A stretch of DNA of 64,000 nucleotides from Jaapia argillacea MUCL 33604 (Eukaryota; Basidiomycota; Agaricomycetes; Jaapiales; Jaapiaceae): the NCBI GenBank assembly GCA_000697665.1, contig KL197714.1, forward strand, positions 210,407 to 274,406, read 5' to 3'. Positions 27,901-49,085 of the stretch are shown here, one piece after another; position 1 is the first letter of the stretch, and each line of letters opens with the position of its first letter. Both the position numbers and the translations under genes were made by a program. The notes beneath the pieces are model-generated. The model ran no database searches and had not been told where the DNA came from. It saw only the letters and a list, made by a program, of their open reading frames with translations.

Positions 27901-30900
27901 GAGGCCCTTGTAGGGAGTCTGATCTCTGCATTCAATCTAGGGTTCGAGCAGATTTTACGTGACGCGGATACCTCTACAAAGTCATTTGAAGCTCCCATTG
28001 AGTTGCTCGCGGTGGCTCTGGAGACTCGCCCCGGGATTATGTCTTCGCCTCCTCTCGCCGTCACCCTACTCCCAGATGTCTTCCTTTTCGCCTACCTGCT
28101 ACCGAAAATCGCGCTTGGACAAGACGTCGGCACCTTCAAGACCGCACAGCGCATCTGGTCGTCCTGGGTTGCTATGACCTCGCGGACCTCGCGTTTAGAC
28201 GTCCTTGCGGTTATCAAAGAAAAGCTTCACGACCTTCTCCTTGATATCCAGGTTCGACCGTTGTGAGTCTCCCTTCAGCTGAGCGTCTGATGGAATCTGA
28301 CGACCCATCACTAGACCGGATCACATCCTCCAACTGTTATCGGAGGAGCCGCACGGCGTCCATCTCAACTTCCTCAAAGACGTCATTCCCTCTCATAAAC
28401 GACTTAGTGCCATGCTCGAATCGTTGCCTTCGGACCCAATTGACCCTAGCTTGACGGTGCTGGATCCCTTGGTCCCACCTCCATCTGTTTTCAACAGCCG
28501 ACGTGTCTTCGATCAGCATTTCGATTCTGCGGGCTATTCTGGTTATGCACGAGTAATATATGCTCTCCTCCAGTTCATTATGAAGCATCGACAAGGGGCT
28601 CGGGAGAACACATGGGCGCTGCTCCATCTACTCGCGTTGGCGACCTATGCGCAGGATTTTTTGAAAGTGCCTTCCGGACGAAGCGCTGTCTTTTCGAAAT
28701 CCATATCCAAGTCAAATCTCGAGGATATTATATCCAAAGTTCACCAAGTGGCCACATATTTGCTTTCGTCACCCAGCGAGAGCCAATGGCACTTAAACGT
28801 CATACAATCCGTCGACCAAGAGACAAATAATCCGACGTTGGACTACACGGGTCGTTTTCTTGCCGACCTGATCAAGTTATCAAAGAAGACTGATACGATA
28901 CGGGATTGCCGCATATTATCTTCCGTGTTGCAGCCCGTCCTCAGCGCTGCTGGTAAGGATGATGCTGATCAGTGGATGCTTTTGGCACGCCGGTTGGAAA
29001 AGACAGGTTTGCTTTCGTAATTGTGAACTATCATGTCTATATCTCATCTTCTATCGCATTATCAGCACCGGAGACTTCGTTGGCCATTGTCTTTTCCATT
29101 ACGCAGTTTGGCCCCGAGCCCCCTCGGCTGGACCGGTATAGGAATGAACTGGCGGCGGGGATGCTTGCAGTGCCACCTTCCAAGGCCAATTCAGAGGGAT
29201 TATCTCTTCTGAGAAAGCTAGCCGCGACGGCCCCGGACCCGGAGTCGGATGTTGTCTTCCTATCGCAGCAGAGAGCCATCAATCTGATCAAAGCCTGTCA
29301 GCAATGGATATCTTCTGACGAAGACATTGACGAGGAGGTAGAAAGTGCCATGACTTTAATCTTCTCACCTCTCCTGCCGATTTTGCAGAATGTTCCTGGT
29401 GGGCACTGGGATTTCATCTTCGACGTTTTGGAGAACAACCTTGAGGTAAAGTGATTCCTTAACCCAGCCCACGGTAACTTATCAGTGCATGGGAAATAGA
29501 ACGGCTCTTTTGAAGATGTCTCGACCTTGGTGGTCTTGACAAGAACCTTGCGGGTCGTCATCGGTGTTCAGGACTTGGTTTCCACGAATAAGGGGTTACG
29601 TGCCACTTGGCAAGATAGGGAGCCCTCTGTCCTTAGTCTCATCAGGAATCTTCTCGCGACTAAACAAGGTATGTGCGTTGTAACGTTCGTACGGCTGGGT
29701 CTCAACATACTTGTAGCTGGTGCCATTGGCGTCTCGGCACCGTCATCGATTTGCGTCGAGCAAGCACTCTCTGCTATCCAGGATATGCCTGGTGCTCTCA
29801 TGGACCAGGACACACTCTCATCCGTATGTCGTCTCCTTGCATGTTCTCCCGATTCTGAACCCAATTGTTTGCAGATGTGTCACCTTCTGGTCGATCGGTC
29901 AGTCGACGCCCAAAAGATGGCGTATCACTTACTTCACGAAGCTGCAAAAAAGCGGACAGAGTACCTCGTCATCGAGGCGGGCGTCGATGGCGATACAACT
30001 GTGCATTGTCAGCTTCCTGGAGAACTCCTTGAGATTTTACAACGCACCTTGAACCAAGAAGACCTATCAGACTCTGACAACAATGTACGTTGATTTGTGT
30101 CGCTGTGTATCACATTCTGACGTCATTTTAGGCATCGTTTGGGTATCTACTCGGGTGGATGATCACGTTCGATCTGTTCACTGATGCGGTATGGAGTTCA
30201 CCTTACGCTCATGGACTACAATTGATTTCGACACCTGCAGTCGTTTCGCGTCAAATCAGGATACATTGAACAGCTGAGAGATCTGGACATCATTGCTTCC
30301 CATTTTCTGCCCAGCATCTTCGAGATCCTGGGTTTGTACGGAAGCGCACGGGCGGCCCTCAAGCTGGATATTTGGGGTGTTGACGAGTTTCACATTCCTT
30401 GTGAGATGATGGTCCCATTGAAGCAAACATCAATCCGCTAACTTCTGAACTGCAGTCTACGATCCTGATTCCTCAGTCAGCCTTCAGTTGCTCGCCGCTC
30501 ACCTCTACTATCGAGCTCTCTTGGTGGTGCCATCCCTCATTCGATCGTGGCTGCAAGATTGCAAAGACCGCACTCTTCAATCGACGGTCACCAACTACAC
30601 CTCTCAGCACTTCTCCCCAGTCATAATAAGGACGGAACTCACTCAGGTTGTTTCTCCCGAATCGGAGGAACTCCTTGCACATGAAAACTTGACAGTCAAG
30701 GTGGCGAACAACGTCAGCGAGGTTACAGCTTCATTTGCGGTGGATGAACATCAGCTTGAAATTACTATAAAGCTGCCTAGTGATTGGCCCCTTCATCGGG
30801 TCGAAGTAAGGGACTCGAAGAGAGTTGGTGTCGAAGAAAATCGCTGGAGAGCTTGGGTCCTTGGGGTCCACCAAATCATGTGGTCTCAAGTACGTTTCTC

Positions 30901-31280
30901 CATGTTGGTTTGGGTACTTTGTTGAATGTGTTTCTTTAGAGCGGTACCATCGTCGACGGCCTGAATTTGTTCAAGAAGAACGTCAGCCTTCACTTCGAGG
31001 GACAGGTCGAGTGCGCAATATGCTATTCGTAAGTTGTGAACATTTAGCCGTTATCTCTTGTTGAATTACGCCCCCGTATACAGGATCATCAGTCCGTTGG
31101 ACGACAGCCTTCCAAAGAAGCCATGCCGAACCTGCAAGAATCGATTCCATGCTGCATGTTTGTACAAAGTGAGCCTTGTCCTTTCATGTTGCATCCCTGC
31201 CACGACGTTCACGCCCTTCTTAGTGGTTCAACTCAAGCCATTCCTCGACTTGTCCTTTGTGTCGCTCCGATATTTTCTAG
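25000..31280 (+). CDS. LTN1: Listerin, E3 ubiquitin-protein ligase of ribosome quality control
   Basis: Listerin binds 60S subunits that carry stalled nascent chains and ubiquitylates those chains. The ATG at 25000 opens a Lys-rich N-terminus (MVKGQKSSASSGTRKKHARK), then the conserved block TLGLASQLPPELLIILRSLR followed by KKDAVTKTKALEELQ. The first exon ends at LMLPVW. A long HEAT-like alpha-helical region follows through many exons, with an acidic Ser-rich patch near 26520-26590. The C-terminus has GTIVDGLNLFKKNVSLHFEG, then the RING: VECAICYSIISPLDDSLPKK, PCRTCKNRFHAACLYK, and after an intron WFNSSHSSTCPLCRSDIF, ending in the TAG at 31278-31280. All RING zinc ligands are present (C4HC3-type). 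About 1,700-1,800 residues, close to the family size. I did not map every one of the roughly 18 introns. Confidence 0.93.
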
Positions 31281-32794: not shown

Positions 32795-33738
32795 ATGAAG
32801 GTCTCGGAAAACCCCCTTGAGGGCGTCCATAAGTATGTACACCAGTCGTCCTACCCTCACTAGCTGACTCACATCGATCTAGGATCATCTCCAGCCTTCA
32901 AAAGAAGGCCTTGGAGACTTCCACGGAGGACATCGCTGGGCAAGGACATCCATCATCCCAATCTGAGTCTTACACACTAATTTGCATCATTCTAGGACTG
33001 TTTCCAATCTCCTGAAAAAGGTGCCGAATACTCAGCCTGAAGCTGTTCCCAGGTTTATTTCCCCATCATCGTGCCCGTATGGTTTTAACGATCTAGCTTT
33101 AGGACCATTGCTGGTCTTCGAAGGGGGATCTTTGGGGTCCGTTCCGCGGCTGTAGCTCCGTGCGTTCTCGAACGATTCTACCCATTCCTATGCCTATTGA
33201 ACGACATGCCTCTAGGTCCTTTTCTCACCTTCAGAAGCAAGCCTCGGAGATTCACTCTGAGGGCGTCCTTCGGTACGCCATTCAAGTATTTCACTTGGTG
33301 TTCCTGATTTCGATGAAAATAGTAGTGTTTTGACCAGTCGCAACGCGCGGATCGTCGGGGCGGGAGTTGCTGGCGTGGCTCTCGCTCCCGTTGTTGTTCC
33401 ACCTTTTCTTGGATTGTTTGGATTCTCATCCCATGGACTTGTTGCAGGTGACGCCTATCTCAACTTACCTGTGTGGACAGTATCTCATCTCCTTTACCCT
33501 GTCTACAGGAACCTTCGCAACGGCCATACATTCCACCATTGGGAACGTAGCTGCTGGTTCACCTTTTGCTGTATGCCAGAGTGTGGCAGCTGGTGGGGCG
33601 TTGCCAGCTAGTATGTCTCTCGCCACCGGTGCCGCTACCGCTGGTATATATGCTGCAGCTAGGAGTCTACGTGGCCCGCTATCAAAGCACTTGAATCTGC
33701 GGGCGCGTTTATCACGGGCAAGCAAAGTCTCTATATAA
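32795..33738 (+). CDS. ISG12 (IFI6/IFI27-like) protein with 19-residue repeat exons (gene A)
   Basis: Seven exons: 32795-32832, four 57-nt exons at 32883, 32996, 33103 and 33216, then 33326-33447 and 33509-33738; total 618 nt, 205 residues. Start MKVSENPLEGVHK is conserved in gene B. Each 57-nt exon gives one module (SSLQKKALETSTEDIAG, SNLLKKVPNTQPEAVPR, and so on). The ISG12 domain is IVGAGVAGVALAPVVVPPFL, GLFGFSSHGLVAG, then TIGNVAAGSPFAVCQSVAAG: small, Gly/Ala-rich membrane segments. Relative to gene B one base is missing near 33672, so the tail is out of frame and stops at 33738 (SRASKVSI). The in-frame remainder of the B-type C-terminus, including its last exon, persists as unused sequence at 33786-33930. 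The second intron uses a GC donor. ISG12 proteins in animals are mitochondrial or ER membrane proteins; the fungal role is unknown. Confidence 0.8.
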
Positions 33739-34815
33739 TTTCAAAACTTGCTACCGCCCTCGATTGACATATATCCAGTCGTAGGTACCATCACCAACGA
33801 CTTGCCGGCTCTTGTCGGTAACCACTGTTGACCGCTCTCCGGCGATCCCTAAGGGTACGGTGACTGGTGCAGTTCTTCCAGTGGCCGCCTCCCCTGATAC
33901 CGTCGATGGACAACATACTCGCGTTCTGCCTAAACTGTAACCTGTGCTTGTTCTGCAGTGTAGTTTCGGTCGGTGCATTTGAAACGCCACTGGCCGGGTC
34001 GCAGCGTATCATATTATGGCCCACTTTTTGACTCCGAGTGTGACATCTTGTCATGAGCTTGCGGCCATGCGAACTCGTGGCAAGCTGTGTACATGCGTGC
34101 AATCGGATCTATCAATGTGTCGTGCTGCCGAGCATCTCAGGCGACAGTCCCAAGGGACGTTGTTTGGTTAGATCTTCTCTACCTTCTTGAAATCCTTTAG
34201 GCGCTCCATCGGCGGATTATCTGAGGGGGCGCCTATATGAGCTCTACGACCACCCACAGACCTTCGCCGGCACTCACACTTCGCGATGTCCTCATGGCTT
34301 AAGCCTGAGCGAATCATCGCTGCAGGCGTTTTAACGACTATTGGTGTGCCCAGTTTCCAAATGTTCCCGAGGGGTGGTTCCTCTCGTTGCTTACGTTTGG
34401 AATTTGATAATGCTCTGAGCGGGTTGGCAGTGGATTGTATCATACTACAGCTTTTGTCGACTTGGTGAGACAGCTTGTCATGAGCGCTCGAGCTCGAACG
34501 ACTGGCAAGCGAACTTATGACAAGGTGTGTGCAGATGCCAACCAGATCTGTGAAGGAGTTTATCGTTTTCAGTCCCTCGTTAATATTCCCCTTCAAGTCG
34601 TTCCGCGGATTTACAAGAGGAATGGTGGTTAACGCTTGATTGACTTCGTGAGACTTCGGGTTCCGGGAATAATCAGATTCGTTCCATGCGCGCCTGTTGG
34701 GACCCACCTTTTCAAAGGGTTGTATACGTATACTCTTTGTGTACAATAAGTACAGCCTCTACTGCCCAGCCTTCCAAACCTCTGACATCTCTTGCTTCCA
34801 TATCGATCGTCAGCC
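33739..34815. other. ISG12 inter-gene region with duplicated promoter-like blocks
   Basis: Contains the relic of gene A's last exon (33786-33930), then a block at about 34000-34100 (CTTGTCATGAGCTTGC...GGCAAGCTGTG) that recurs at 34430-34530 and, inverted, at 47760-47880 upstream of gene D. After the first copy comes GGGGCGCCTATA (34225) and an ATG at 34286, laid out just like the promoter and start of gene D, but its frame (MSSWLKPERIIAAGVLTTIG) stops early. This is probably the remnant of a further ISG12 gene between A and C. Confidence 0.6.
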
Positions 34816-35664
34816 ATGGCGGCTCCAAGTTGTTCTACCTGCAATCTGGCAATCCCTGCAGCAGTTGCTCCCGTTGTCTTCGTTGGGTGCCAGCACAGCT
34901 TTCATCCAGCTTGTCTTCCAAACCCTCCCGCTGCTTGTCCGACATGGTGAGGTCCCCGCTTTATCCTATCAATCTCATCGTAGCTTAAGATCCTTTAATG
35001 TCCCAGCGACTGGCACCGGCGTCTGATTCGGGGTGCTGCTGGCGCTGCGGCTGGCATATGCCTCGCCCCAATCATCGCACCAGCAGCACTCGGAATCGTT
35101 GGGTTTGGTGCTGCAGGCCCGGTTGCAGGTGAGTTGATATCTTCGACGGAGTCGAGAGGCCGTGTAGGCTGACCACTCTTGAGTATAGGGACTTTAGCAG
35201 CCGTTTGGCAAGCTTCAATTGGTAATGTGGCAGCGGGATCTGCCTTTGCTCTATGCCAAAGCGTTGCTGCGGGAGGGGCCCTTCCCATGCTCGGATTCGC
35301 CGCAGGGGCTGCTGCCGGAGCCGCCGCTGGAGTTGGAACCGCAGAGACTCCTCTTGGGAGTGGAGGTGGCGCTGGATCTGGAGGCGGTCCATCAGCAGCA
35401 GGCGAAGGGGGAGCGAAAGAAGGAGGCCCTGGAAGTGGGGAAGGACTCGGTGAGGTTGGTGGACGAGATTCAGGTGGAGCACGAGAGGATCATGCAAGCT
35501 GTGATGGTGATCATAACTGCGACGACGAGATTAATCCAGCCGTATGGTACGGTCGAGGACCAGGTGAAGTTGATGGACCAGGTCCAGATGGAGCACGACA
35601 GGATGTTGTAAGCTGTGGTAGTCGTAATGACTATGGCGACGAGATTAATCCAGCTGTATGGTAA
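34816..35664 (+). CDS. RING-H2 finger fused to an ISG12 domain (gene C)
   Basis: Three exons, 34816-34946, 35007-35128 and 35189-35664, total 729 nt, 242 residues; ATG in good context (CAGCCATGG). Residues 6-44 form a complete RING-H2: C6-x2-C9, C25-x-H27-x2-H30-x2-C33, C41-x2-C44 (MAAPSCSTCNLAI, GCQHSFHPAC, ACPTC; the last Cys codon is split by intron 1). Exon 2 (122 nt, the same length and phase as in genes A, B and D) starts the ISG12 domain: RGAAGAAAGICLAPIIAPAA, LGIVGFGAAGPVAG, then TLAAVWQASIGNVAAGSAFA and LCQSVAAGGALP. A Gly/Ala-rich stretch follows, then two 38-residue repeats each ending DEINPAVW; the stop follows the second. RING-H2 domains recruit E2 enzymes, so this is likely a membrane-bound E3 ligase. 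The terminal TGGTAAGT could also be a splice donor, in which case the protein is longer. Confidence 0.82.
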
Positions 35665-45865: not shown

Positions 45866-46511
45866 CCTCGACACGTGGATGTAAAGGTGTAAATTATCAA
45901 ATGTGCTTCACTATGTATGCTTGTCTAGTCTCGTGGAATAAACTCGTCTGGTATCTGTTCGTCAGGAGATGTGCTTCGTAGCCGTGAGGGAAGTGGAATG
46001 CAAGAGCATTAGGAAGTCGGATCCGTTTCCATCACACCCCACCTAACTTGCTCGTCACTCAAAGGCATCTCCCACTTGCCCTCGGACCTTCTGCAATCAA
46101 TCGCAAGAGTTCTGGTGATAACTCGGGTCGGGTGGATGATGAGACGAGTCGTAAGATCTTGTACATCCAAGGTAAAGAGTTCAGTCCGCGAGGGGGGTCC
46201 CACAGGTCGCGGTGATCTGAGTAAGTTCCAGACGAGGTATTGTCTTCGACGTCTTCAAGCTTATGTGAAAGGTAGGGCCATTCAGTCCACACTCGTCAGA
46301 GACTCGGACTGCGAGATTACCCAAGCGTCGGCGGGTTTGACGATCTCTATTGTCAGCTTGCCACGAGTCCGCGTGAAGTCGGGGCTCGTGACAAGCTGTT
46401 ATAAGCGAAGTGGACAAAAATTGTGGAACAGTACAATCGCCTCCCAAGTTAACACTCACCAACCAGACGAACTACGCAAACCCATGCCAGAGACAAAAAA
46501 AAATACCAAGC
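45866..46511. other. Intergenic region between mannanase and ISG12 gene D
   Basis: Convergent 3' flanks. A 150-residue plus-strand frame at 46076-46528 overlaps the end of gene D and has no recognisable domain. Confidence 0.5.
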
Positions 46512-47525
46512 CTACTCTTTCACCTTGAACGCCTTCTTGAACCATTGACGGACCGTGTTCCCTGCATGGATCACACCAGTGCTAACAGCATCGGTGGCGG
46601 CAGACGCAGCAGCTGGTAGCCCTGCGCCAGCCGCCACCCCCTGGCGCATCGCAACATTCGAGCCGATAGCCACCCTTTCGGCTGAAATCTGCCAATATTT
46701 GACAAGAGTTGCTATAAAACACATTCAATACTGCTCAAGGAGTTAGAGGGACGGCGTACCTGCGATGAAACCCTTCGAGGTCAATTCGAGAACTTTGCGA
46801 GTATGGGGAGCAATAGCCCGAATGGCAGAATACATTCCAGCGCTGACAGCACCGCTTGCAATAGGCACTATAATCGGCAACGCTCCGCCAGCTGCGATGC
46901 TCTGGCACATAGCAAAAATCGAGCCAGCAACCACATTGCCGATCGAAGACTGCCAAAGGGCCGCGAGAGATCCTGCAGAGACCACGGACCGCCCGAGGTG
47001 AGAGAGATGAAGTTCGTACCAAATGATTGGCTTACCGGCGACGGGACCGGCAGCAGAGAAACCGATCAAACCAAGGACAGGATGTATGATGACTGGCGCT
47101 AATACTAGCCCAAAAATCCCTGCAGCGATGATTTGGGCCTTGCGACTCGTCAGAATCCTAGAGCCGCATCAAATCAAAGTACGGGGAGGAATGGCGAGTG
47201 GATGTACCGGACGATATCCTCGGATCGGATTTCCATGAGCTTCTGTTGAAGGGCAAAAAAGAACCTATGTTTGGTTACTCAACAAGGTATGATGGAATGG
47301 CTAGAACACATACGCGGCCACGTCCTTGGAGCTGATTTCAGAAGCTCTCTTCCGCACTTTGGAAATGGGCAACAAGGAAGGTCTGTCAACGTTGGCAGAT
47401 AGCAAGCGAAATTTTTCTGGGGGATTTTGGGCGGCAGGGTCCGGTGTGATCAATGTACGCCTTTGGGAGATGGTGGAAACCATCTGAGAATCCGATAGAG
47501 CTCCTTGAAACGAAGGGGAAGACAT
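46512..47525 (-). CDS. ISG12 protein with low-complexity N-terminus (gene D)
   Basis: Five exons, 47525-47314, 47264-47208, 47157-47036, 46972-46760 and 46711-46512, total 804 nt, 267 residues. The first exon encodes a Ser/Thr/Pro-rich tail (MSSPSFQGALSDSQMVSTIS) ending in a repeat-like module (SKVRKRASEISSKDVAA). A single 57-nt repeat exon follows (FFFALQQKLMEIRSEDIVR). The 122-nt exon starts the ISG12 domain (ILTSRKAQIIAAGIFGLVLA, PVIIHPVLGLIGFSAAGPVA), then SLAALWQSSIGNVVAGSIFA and MCQSIAAGGALPIIVPIASG. The last exon contributes a second, degenerate ISG12-like half (SNVAMRQGVAAGAGLPAAAS) and a basic end (VRQWFKKAFKVKE). Membrane-embedded, target organelle unknown. It is the inverted-block counterpart of gene C, which has a RING in place of this N-terminus. 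Confidence 0.83.
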
Positions 47526-47931
47526 CGTAGGGGCAGAGCGGCTCTCTGGGAAGGAAAGTAAGAGCGTCCGAAGGTGGTTACATAGCTTATTATAGGCGCC
47601 CACATCAGCTGACTCATGGGGCGCCTACAGCAATGCAGCTACAAAGGCCGACAAAAAACACCACCTCGCACCATCGTATCTATCACAGCATCGATCGGAA
47701 GGTGACTATATGCAGGGAGTGCGAAAGCGGATTACGAAAACGATACGTTGGCAGCTGCAATTGTATCCATGTCCACAGCTTGCCATGAGTTCGCAACGTC
47801 TGCAAGCTCATGACAAGACGACACACTTCGGGCTCACAAATGGGCGATAATAATACAACCACCTGGCGAACGCACCAACCAAAGCTACTTTGCAGAAAAC
47901 GCGCCAGCTACAATTTAGCGATGGGACCCTT
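47526..47931 (-). promoter_or_regulatory. Promoter region of gene D
   Basis: Carries a TATA-like TATAATAAG on the minus strand (about 47594-47586) just inside GGGCGCCTATA, and about 180 bp further upstream the block CTTGTCATGAGC / TGGCAAGCTGTGG (about 47760-47815 on this strand's complement). The same blocks in the same order occur between genes A and C. Confidence 0.6.
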
Positions 47932-49085
47932 CTACTGTCCATCAGCATTGCTCTTTGTTTGATAAACACCAGCGCTGGCGGCACCATGGGATGCAGCGAC
48001 TGGAAGAACTAGACCAGTCACCGCACCCTTAGCTTTCGCCAGAGCGGAGTCAACAGCGCCTTTGTTGACAAGAGCTGACAAGTCGTTGGCGACGGTAGCT
48101 GTAACAAGGTATGTATCAATCGCTAGCGGGAGCAAGAGTTGAAATTACAGAGCACTGTGTACTTACCCGCAATAAAACCCCCTGCAGACTCAAATACTTT
48201 CACAGCAGGCGGCAAGATCTCCGCAGCTGCAGCATACATACCAGCAGTGGTGAGACCGCTGGCGAGAGACACACCAACCGGCAAGGCTCCACCAGCCGCC
48301 ACACTCTGGCACACAGCAAACGCTGAGCCAGCAGCTACATTTCCGATAGAAGACTGTATAGTGGCAGCGGCGGTGCCTGTACACAGGGTAGAGGACATCA
48401 GGTACACTTCACAGAGAGAGAAGTTGAGACTGATGGCACCTGCAACGGGTCCTTGGGCTGAGAACCCAAAAAGTCCAAGCACAGGTGGAACAATCACGGG
48501 AGCGAGAACGACTCCAGCAACCCCTGCACCGACGATCTGCGCTTCACGACTGGTCAAGATCCTATATTGATGTAAATCAAGAGTAACAAGTGGAATAATC
48601 GAGAAGCCTACCGAAGGACATCCTCAGAGCGAATCTCCGAGGTCAGCTTCTGAAGGCCGACAAGGGAGCTAGAGGGATGACAATCAATAGGCCTACGTAT
48701 AGGTGGAATCATTGGAGCACGCACCGAGCTAGATCTTCGGGGTGAATATCCAAGATTTTCTTTTGAATATCGGAGACGGTCCTAAAGCCAGTTCGATAAA
48801 CCCATACAGTCACAATGAATGGGTATATAAACCTGGCAACGTCTTCTGGCTGAATATTCGGCGCCGCCTTCTGGAGATCGGCAACAGTCCTAGAGTCATC
48901 CACATTAGCGTGTGAGAGTGGAACGATGGATGCCTTTGCCTAGCAATGTTCTCCGGGGAAATTCGCAAGGCCCTCTTTTGAAGATCGGCGAGGAGACTAG
49001 ATCAATGTAAACCAACTGGTGCGGGGTAGAACGACCGATGTACATACTTGTGGACGCCCTCAAGGGGATTTTCTGAGACCTTCAT
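47932..49085 (-). CDS. ISG12 protein with four 19-residue repeat exons (gene B)
   Basis: Eight exons: 49085-49048 (38 nt), 48996-48940, 48889-48833, 48781-48725, 48668-48612 (57 nt each), 48561-48440 (122), 48376-48167 (210), 48098-47932 (167); total 765 nt, 254 residues. Start MKVSENPLEGVHN. The repeat exons give LLADLQKRALRISPENIAR, TVADLQKAAPNIQPEDVAR, TVSDIQKKILDIHPEDLAR and SLVGLQKLTSEIRSEDVLR, all flanked by phase-2 introns. The ISG12 domain follows: ILTSREAQIVGAGVAGVVLA, PVIVPPVLGLFGFSAQGPVA, then TIQSSIGNVAAGSAFAVCQS and VAAGGALPVGVSLASGLTTA. The last exon gives a C-terminal Gly/Ala-rich helix pair (ATVANDLSALVNKG, GLVLPVAASHGAASAG). This is the intact relative of gene A. The intron after repeat 1 has a GC donor (GCAAAG), as in gene A. 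Function unknown; probably an organelle membrane protein. Confidence 0.88.

Follow-up and report, generated by a model that had tools for sequence, protein, structure and literature searches.

The window, i.e. the whole stretch of DNA that was analysed, comprised 64,000 nt of Jaapia argillacea MUCL 33604 (contig KL197714.1, positions 210,407 to 274,406, forward strand). Its gene content, with partial matches to listerin, a 2-hydroxyacid dehydrogenase, a DEAD-box helicase, and a family 5 glycosidase, and its short introns are suggestive of a fungus. On the plus strand, positions 34816 to 35664 allow a credible model of a three-exon gene, in which a RING-H2-like finger is predicted to be joined to an ISG12 domain. 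This RING-ISG12 gene has the following parts:

34816 to 34946, plus strand: exon 1, with the start codon and the RING-H2-like finger, residues 1 to 43 and the first two bases of the codon for the last Cys
34947 to 35006, plus strand: intron 1, 60 nt, phase 2, GT-AG, donor GTGAGG
35007 to 35128, plus strand: exon 2, 122 nt, with the last Cys of the finger and the first half of the ISG12 domain
35129 to 35188, plus strand: intron 2, 60 nt, phase 1 as in the paralogues, GT-AG, donor GTGAGT
35189 to 35664, plus strand: exon 3, with the second half of the ISG12 domain, a Gly-rich tail in a less certain frame, and the stop codon
35449 to 35664, plus strand: two tandem copies in the tail, period 114 nt, with DEINPAVW in each

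Spliced together, the three exons (131, 122, and 476 nt) make 729 nt, which translate in frame into 242 residues without any internal stop codon. The initial annotation had described a complete RING-H2 ligand set joined to an ISG12 domain in a reading frame of this length. The exons splice as it had claimed, with two 60-nt GT-AG introns, and both the domain order and the splice phases were reproduced when the exons were translated and the phases recomputed. It had also stated that the last Cys of the finger is only completed by splicing into the 122-nt exon, and this codon is indeed split by intron 1, into TG and C.

The identity of the ISG12 domain, also claimed before, was confirmed with the Pfam profile PF06140 (Ifi-6-16/ISG12), which matched residues 57-132 with an E value of 4.9e-8 and 33.2 bits, above the curated cut-off of 29.1 bits. 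Residues 49-91 and 103-136 are hydrophobic on the Kyte-Doolittle scale, and the maximum over 19 residues is 2.09 at residues 61-79, so that membrane-compatible segments are present; the hydropathy turns negative in the Gly-rich tail. The RING-ISG12 protein would thus be expected to insert into a membrane.

A tblastn search of the window revealed three further ISG12 copies and one degenerate half copy, and the paralogues that had been presumed in the neighbourhood therefore exist:

33216 to 33738, plus strand: paralogue A (3' part), with a repeat mini-exon at 33216 to 33272 and ISG12 exons at 33326 to 33447 and 33509 to 33738; PF06140 E 1.5e-8 when spliced
46512 to 47525, minus strand: paralogue C, with an N-terminal region with repeat exons, ISG12 exons, and a further, degenerate copy of the domain core; after splicing, PF06140 E 1.3e-10, with the start and the last intron placed by eye
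47932 to 48998, minus strand: paralogue B (3' part), with repeat mini-exons, ISG12 exons from 48561 downwards, and a stop codon at 47932; PF06140 E 1.2e-8 when spliced, with the last intron placed by eye

When spliced, all three paralogues passed the PF06140 cut-off. Their identities to the RING-ISG12 gene over the spliced domain were 45% (A), 51% (B), and 48% (C), the only gap being that in the last column of the alignment, and exon 2 could be aligned without gaps across the four genes. In all four, this exon is 122 nt long, preceded by a phase-2 intron and followed by a phase-1 intron; accordingly, intron 1 of the RING-ISG12 gene has the same phase and the same place relative to the domain as its counterparts in A, B, and C. 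The degenerate second core of paralogue C is located near its C-terminus (minus strand, 46709 to 46575; tblastn E 3.4e-5).

In the paralogues, the ISG12 exon is preceded by short exons encoding the repeat xDLQKxxxxIxxEDVxR, which looks helix-like, as judged by eye only, and no RING was seen in the front exons of A, B, and C. A matrix built from seven seeds of this repeat gave ten matches over the threshold, including the seeds; nine are situated before ISG12 domains, and one elsewhere (minus strand, 53458). Tandem repeat mini-exons are found before ISG12 domains from 48998 to 48611 on the minus strand and from 32881 to 33272 on the plus strand; by eye, the repeat exons starting near plus 32881 and minus 48998 seem to use GC donors. 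Because the repeat exons adjoining the ISG12 domain end in phase 2 in the three paralogues, the same slot accommodates a finger exon with a phase-2 end. The assembly by exon joining that the initial annotation had proposed is thus borne out by the exon length and phases shared with three paralogues. The comparison suggests that the 5' exons were replaced in one member of the ISG12 cluster, presumably in the direction from repeat exons to finger exon.

The homology between the four genes also bears on the start of the RING-ISG12 gene. Exon 2 lacks an in-frame ATG, and an upstream exon is therefore needed. Exon 1 was assigned on the basis of an open frame, the full ligand set, the match of residues 1-52 to the profile zf-RING_5 (E 3.1e-4, 21.1 bits, below the cut-off of 27.9 bits), and the phase-2 donor GTGAGG; the start codon lies in the context CAGCCATGG. 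When all donor/acceptor pairs were listed that would provide the ISG12 exon with an upstream ATG across an intron of 40-300 nt, eight pairs turned out to be possible. Only one has a GTRAG donor, i.e. the donor GTGAGG of exon 1, and in two the intron length (55 and 60 nt) falls into the paralogue range of 50-63 nt. The argument from the GTRAG donor is weak by itself, because such a donor is present in only one of the six matching paralogue introns and the other five have different ones; one paralogue donor, GTGCCA, is identical in sequence to a rival donor at 34887. This step of the gene model is carried by homology, since exon length and phases are equal in 4 out of 4 genes, which is stronger than donor consensus: as the length and the flanking phases of exon 2 are common to the four genes, the acceptor and the phase required of the upstream exon are the family's own. 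We infer that the gene is transcribed and spliced in this form.

Least secure within the gene model is its 3' end, where the C-terminal tail follows from an open frame only. The two copies of the tail repeat are identical at 81 of 102 compared bases, and the differences are distributed over the three codon positions as 7, 10, and 4, which leaves the frame undecided. Likewise, 18 of 33 positions are kept between the copies in the true frame, 18 of 33 in the next frame, and 22 of 33 in the third, with stops counted as letters; the third frame is full of stops. The stop codon of the gene is overlapped by GTAAGT, and a second frame in the exon 3 region stays open between 35198 and 35608, so that the real 3' end may differ.

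The finger has the ligand series C-x2-C-x15-C-x-H-x2-H-x2-C-x7-C-x2-C within 39 residues, which is the C3H2C3 order and spacing of RING-H2 fingers and accounts for every Cys (six) and every His (two) ahead of residue 45. When the 52 N-terminal residues were permuted, a loose RING pattern was reproduced in 4 of 1,000,000 cases. A strict RING-H2 pattern was sought on both strands and in all frames, either uninterrupted or with a single GT[A/G]-AG intron of 45-80 nt inside it; the real window contained a single match, the finger of the RING-ISG12 gene, and none was found in 12 windows simulated with a first-order chain, splicing allowed. The ligand set is therefore unlikely to have arisen by chance.

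The profile searches were less clear-cut. For residues 1-52, eleven Pfam families were listed, all of them zinc fingers (ten are identified as RING by their name or description, and the other is a C3H2C3 zinc finger), with zf-RING_5 as the best and the Vps41 and fungal Vps8 RING profiles also among them, but the finger remained below the curated cut-off in all eleven cases. With the whole protein as query, zf-RING_5 scored 17.9 bits (E 0.0031). As a control, nine sequences were generated in which the ligands were fixed and the other residues were shuffled; the best of these reached 18.0 bits (E 0.0035), compared with 21.1 bits for the finger, and four of the nine yielded no match at all. Some profile signal beyond the ligands is thus present, with a small margin over the shuffles. 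The RING beside the listerin gene, spliced by eye and used as a further control, gave 34.3 bits with zf-RING_2 (cut-off 27.3 bits). A PDB sequence search with the finger did not yield a significant match, and the first alignment was to synoviolin (HRD1), with an E value of 0.51. A structure model had a pLDDT of 49.8 and a pTM of 0.26, with two short helices and no RING fold; it was a single-sequence prediction of the unspliced exon 1 frame, in which the last Cys is absent, and at this low confidence it speaks neither for nor against zinc geometry.

Twelve ORFs of the window were used to train a codon usage model, and 815 random open windows served as reference. In exon 1, the RING frame had a score of -0.142 per codon versus 0.031 for another open frame, and the lower quartile of the random windows was -0.097. 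However, this test has little power, because the ISG12 exons scored low as well (-0.108 for exon 2 and -0.054 for a part of exon 3). We use the term "RING-H2-like finger" rather than RING E3; the finger is predicted to bind zinc.

Several other elements were observed around the ISG12 genes. A hairpin-like element, CTTGTCAYGAGC ... GGCAAGC, is present in four copies (plus strand, 34047 to 34085 and 34474 to 34510; minus strand, 47778 to 47817 and 46356 to 46395), each on the coding strand and downstream of ISG12 genes or of a possible remnant; a pattern scan of the window did not reveal a copy after the RING-ISG12 gene. It is possibly a common 3' UTR or mRNA 3'-end element. A promoter-like stretch, GGGCGCCTATA, in the region 34227 to 34465 of the plus strand is shared with paralogue C (minus strand, 47601), and is followed by a short ORF whose beginning resembles an ISG12 domain (MSSWLKPERIIAAGV); the RING-ISG12 gene comes directly after it. 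The ORF within this region is perhaps a truncated ISG12 gene.

Further upstream, the region 29500 to 31280 of the plus strand contains listerin (LTN1) sequence, with a PF22999 match (E 1.2e-14) for 29500 to 30090, followed on the same strand by the spliced RING that served as control, and the two probably belong to one gene. The idea that the finger was derived from this RING, which is located about 3.5 kb upstream and whose stop codon ends at 31280, was without support: the two did not match at the DNA level at E values up to 1, and at the protein level only a 10-residue stretch was found, at E 4.3.

Searches outside the window were negative within their scope. Neither the ISG12 alignment nor the 137-residue spliced protein had relatives in the viral contigs or the prokaryote genome contigs that were scanned, and tblastn did not detect relatives of the 137-residue protein in plasmids or phages. 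All of these collections are non-fungal, so they are uninformative about the frequency of the fusion among fungi. The NCBIfam profiles did not yield a match, and neither did a promoter and terminator scan 5' of the RING-ISG12 gene, for which the models were of bacterial type and unsuited to a eukaryote.

Taken together, we regard the gene as a member of the ISG12 cluster in which a RING-H2-like finger exon replaced the repeat 5' exons and which encodes a membrane-tethered docking protein, and assign this reading a probability of about 0.6. The finger exon would have been joined via the common phase-2 intron before the ISG12 domain. The hydrophobic Gly/Ala-rich ISG12 segments would anchor the product in an organelle membrane, leaving the N-terminal zinc finger and the C-terminal Gly-rich acidic tail outside, and a finger on an ISG12 gene is a plausible way of tethering it to a membrane. 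There, the most likely role of the finger would be docking, by which a partner protein is recruited to ISG12 assemblies, and the partners may include components of the ubiquitin system. The product may also assemble with the paralogues. The reading is supported by the PF06140 matches in four genes, the exon 2 phases in 4 out of 4, a ligand set unlikely to be due to chance, and the hydrophobic segments; it is weakened by the scores under the Pfam cut-offs, the small shuffle margin, the codon score of the RING frame, the absence of charged residues before position 45, and the lack of an orthologue in the non-fungal collections scanned.

The main rival is ligase activity. The initial annotation had proposed a membrane-anchored E3 ligase assembled by exon joining, possibly acting on partners of the neighbouring ISG12 paralogues. 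In such a ligase, the finger would bind E2~ubiquitin and the ISG12 part would bring it to membrane substrates, perhaps the paralogues. The complete RING-H2 ligand set and the C-P-x-C at the last pair speak for it, and so do passages of two reports in which human IFI27/ISG12a acts with the E3 SKP2 (PMC10175689, PMC12646010). According to these passages, IFI27/ISG12a, a small hydrophobic and pro-apoptotic protein of 122 residues at mitochondria, acts as an adaptor in the degradation of HCV NS5A, whose binding by SKP2 it promotes (PMC10175689), and IFI27-induced degradation of C/EBPalpha needs SKP2 (PMC12646010). Yet the human protein recruits a separate E3 and, in the same passages, does not bind C/EBPalpha directly (PMC12646010).

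The finger itself also argues against ligase activity. Four features are typical of RINGs that contact an E2 and activate ubiquitin, although some active RINGs do not have all of them: a hydrophobic residue within the first Cys pair, a Trp or similar residue in the C6-C7 loop, a Pro in the last pair, and a linchpin Arg. Judged by these generally known roles, three of the four positions are atypical in the finger, and only the Pro is present. The first pair is C-S-T-C instead of the usual C-x-[I/L/V]-C, with Thr at the hydrophobic position; in the non-significant synoviolin alignment, the C6-C7 loop of the finger is shorter by three residues (WFQ), and the last Cys is followed by Asp where synoviolin has Arg. 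Thus, of the proposed E3 ligase, the exon joining stood, whereas the ligase part stays hypothetical, with the finger below 11 of 11 cut-offs and three of the four positions atypical. From the sequence, ligase activity is possible, but we consider an active membrane-anchored E3 rather unlikely. Still a little more doubtful is the combined proposal that the cluster swaps N-terminal modules by exon shuffling via the fixed phase-2 intron, with a membrane-embedded RING ubiquitin ligase as one of the products.

Two further explanations were considered. The N-terminus could be an uncharged, Cys-rich hydrophobic leader, i.e. a signal anchor or a lipidated segment, with a coincidental RING spacing. The absence of charged residues (Lys, Arg, Asp, Glu) ahead of residue 45, a mean Kyte-Doolittle value of 1.66 over residues 7-25, and the weak profile scores would fit such a leader, but coincidence is difficult to reconcile with the rarity of the pattern in permutations and simulated windows and with its use of every Cys and His in this region, making a leader improbable. 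Alternatively, the gene model could be an annotation artefact, with the finger exon not joined to the ISG12 exons in real transcripts, or a decaying, non-functional member of the cluster could be involved. The truncated ISG12-like start at 34227 to 34465 just upstream implies that the cluster seems to hold remnants, the coding signal is weak, seven alternative upstream joins could formally be made, and the donors of the paralogues often depart from the consensus. Against this stand the exon length and intron phases equal to those of the paralogues, the 242 codons without a stop, the start context, the missing ATG in exon 2, and the sole GTRAG donor among the eight joins; an artefact or decaying copy is the least probable of the explanations considered. 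The preferred reading remains that of a membrane-tethered docking protein.

To our knowledge, the mode of action of ISG12 proteins is poorly resolved. Fungal members seem to be little studied, as only one paper of the open-access literature searched contains the accession PF06140. By analogy with human IFI27 and SKP2, over a great distance, a link of the RING-ISG12 fusion to ubiquitin is plausible. If true, a natural fusion of a RING-like finger with ISG12 would be independent evidence for an ISG12-ubiquitin link, and it would offer a one-protein system for testing this link. If the protein were a ligase, ISG12 and E3 functions, which are separate in human cells (IFI27 with SKP2), would be united in one polypeptide. 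With its exchangeable 5' exons, the ISG12 cluster would illustrate, in compact form, how exons are shuffled in a fungus-like genome.

The initial annotation knew of no described RING-ISG12 protein, and the titles and abstract beginnings of the matches listed from the open-access literature agree with this. As far as checked within that literature, RING plus ISG12 is a new combination of known parts. With the Ifi-6-16/ISG12/FAM14 family (PF06140; human IFI6, IFI27), the RING-ISG12 protein shares a domain above the cut-off and hydrophobic Gly/Ala-rich segments, but it also carries a RING-like finger N-terminal and a Gly-rich acidic tail C-terminal to the domain; as far as we know, IFI27 has no RING. 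Paralogues A, B, and C are alike in exon 2 length and intron phases and differ by having repeat mini-exons instead of the finger. Ligand order and spacing are those of RING-H2 fingers (zf-RING_5, zf-RING_2; Vps41 and Vps8 type), whereas the scores below the cut-offs, the short C6-C7 loop of seven residues, the missing Trp, and the Asp after the last Cys set the finger apart. Synoviolin, the best PDB sequence match albeit not significant, is a membrane RING E3, and its membrane part is not known to be related to ISG12. A table in a predicted-secretome study (PMC10051545) contains a Thielaviopsis punctulata protein with Ferritin_2 and Ifi-6-16 (KKA29592.1). As far as this table entry goes, it resembles the RING-ISG12 protein in being a fungal Ifi-6-16 domain beside another domain, but the partner is Ferritin_2, not RING.
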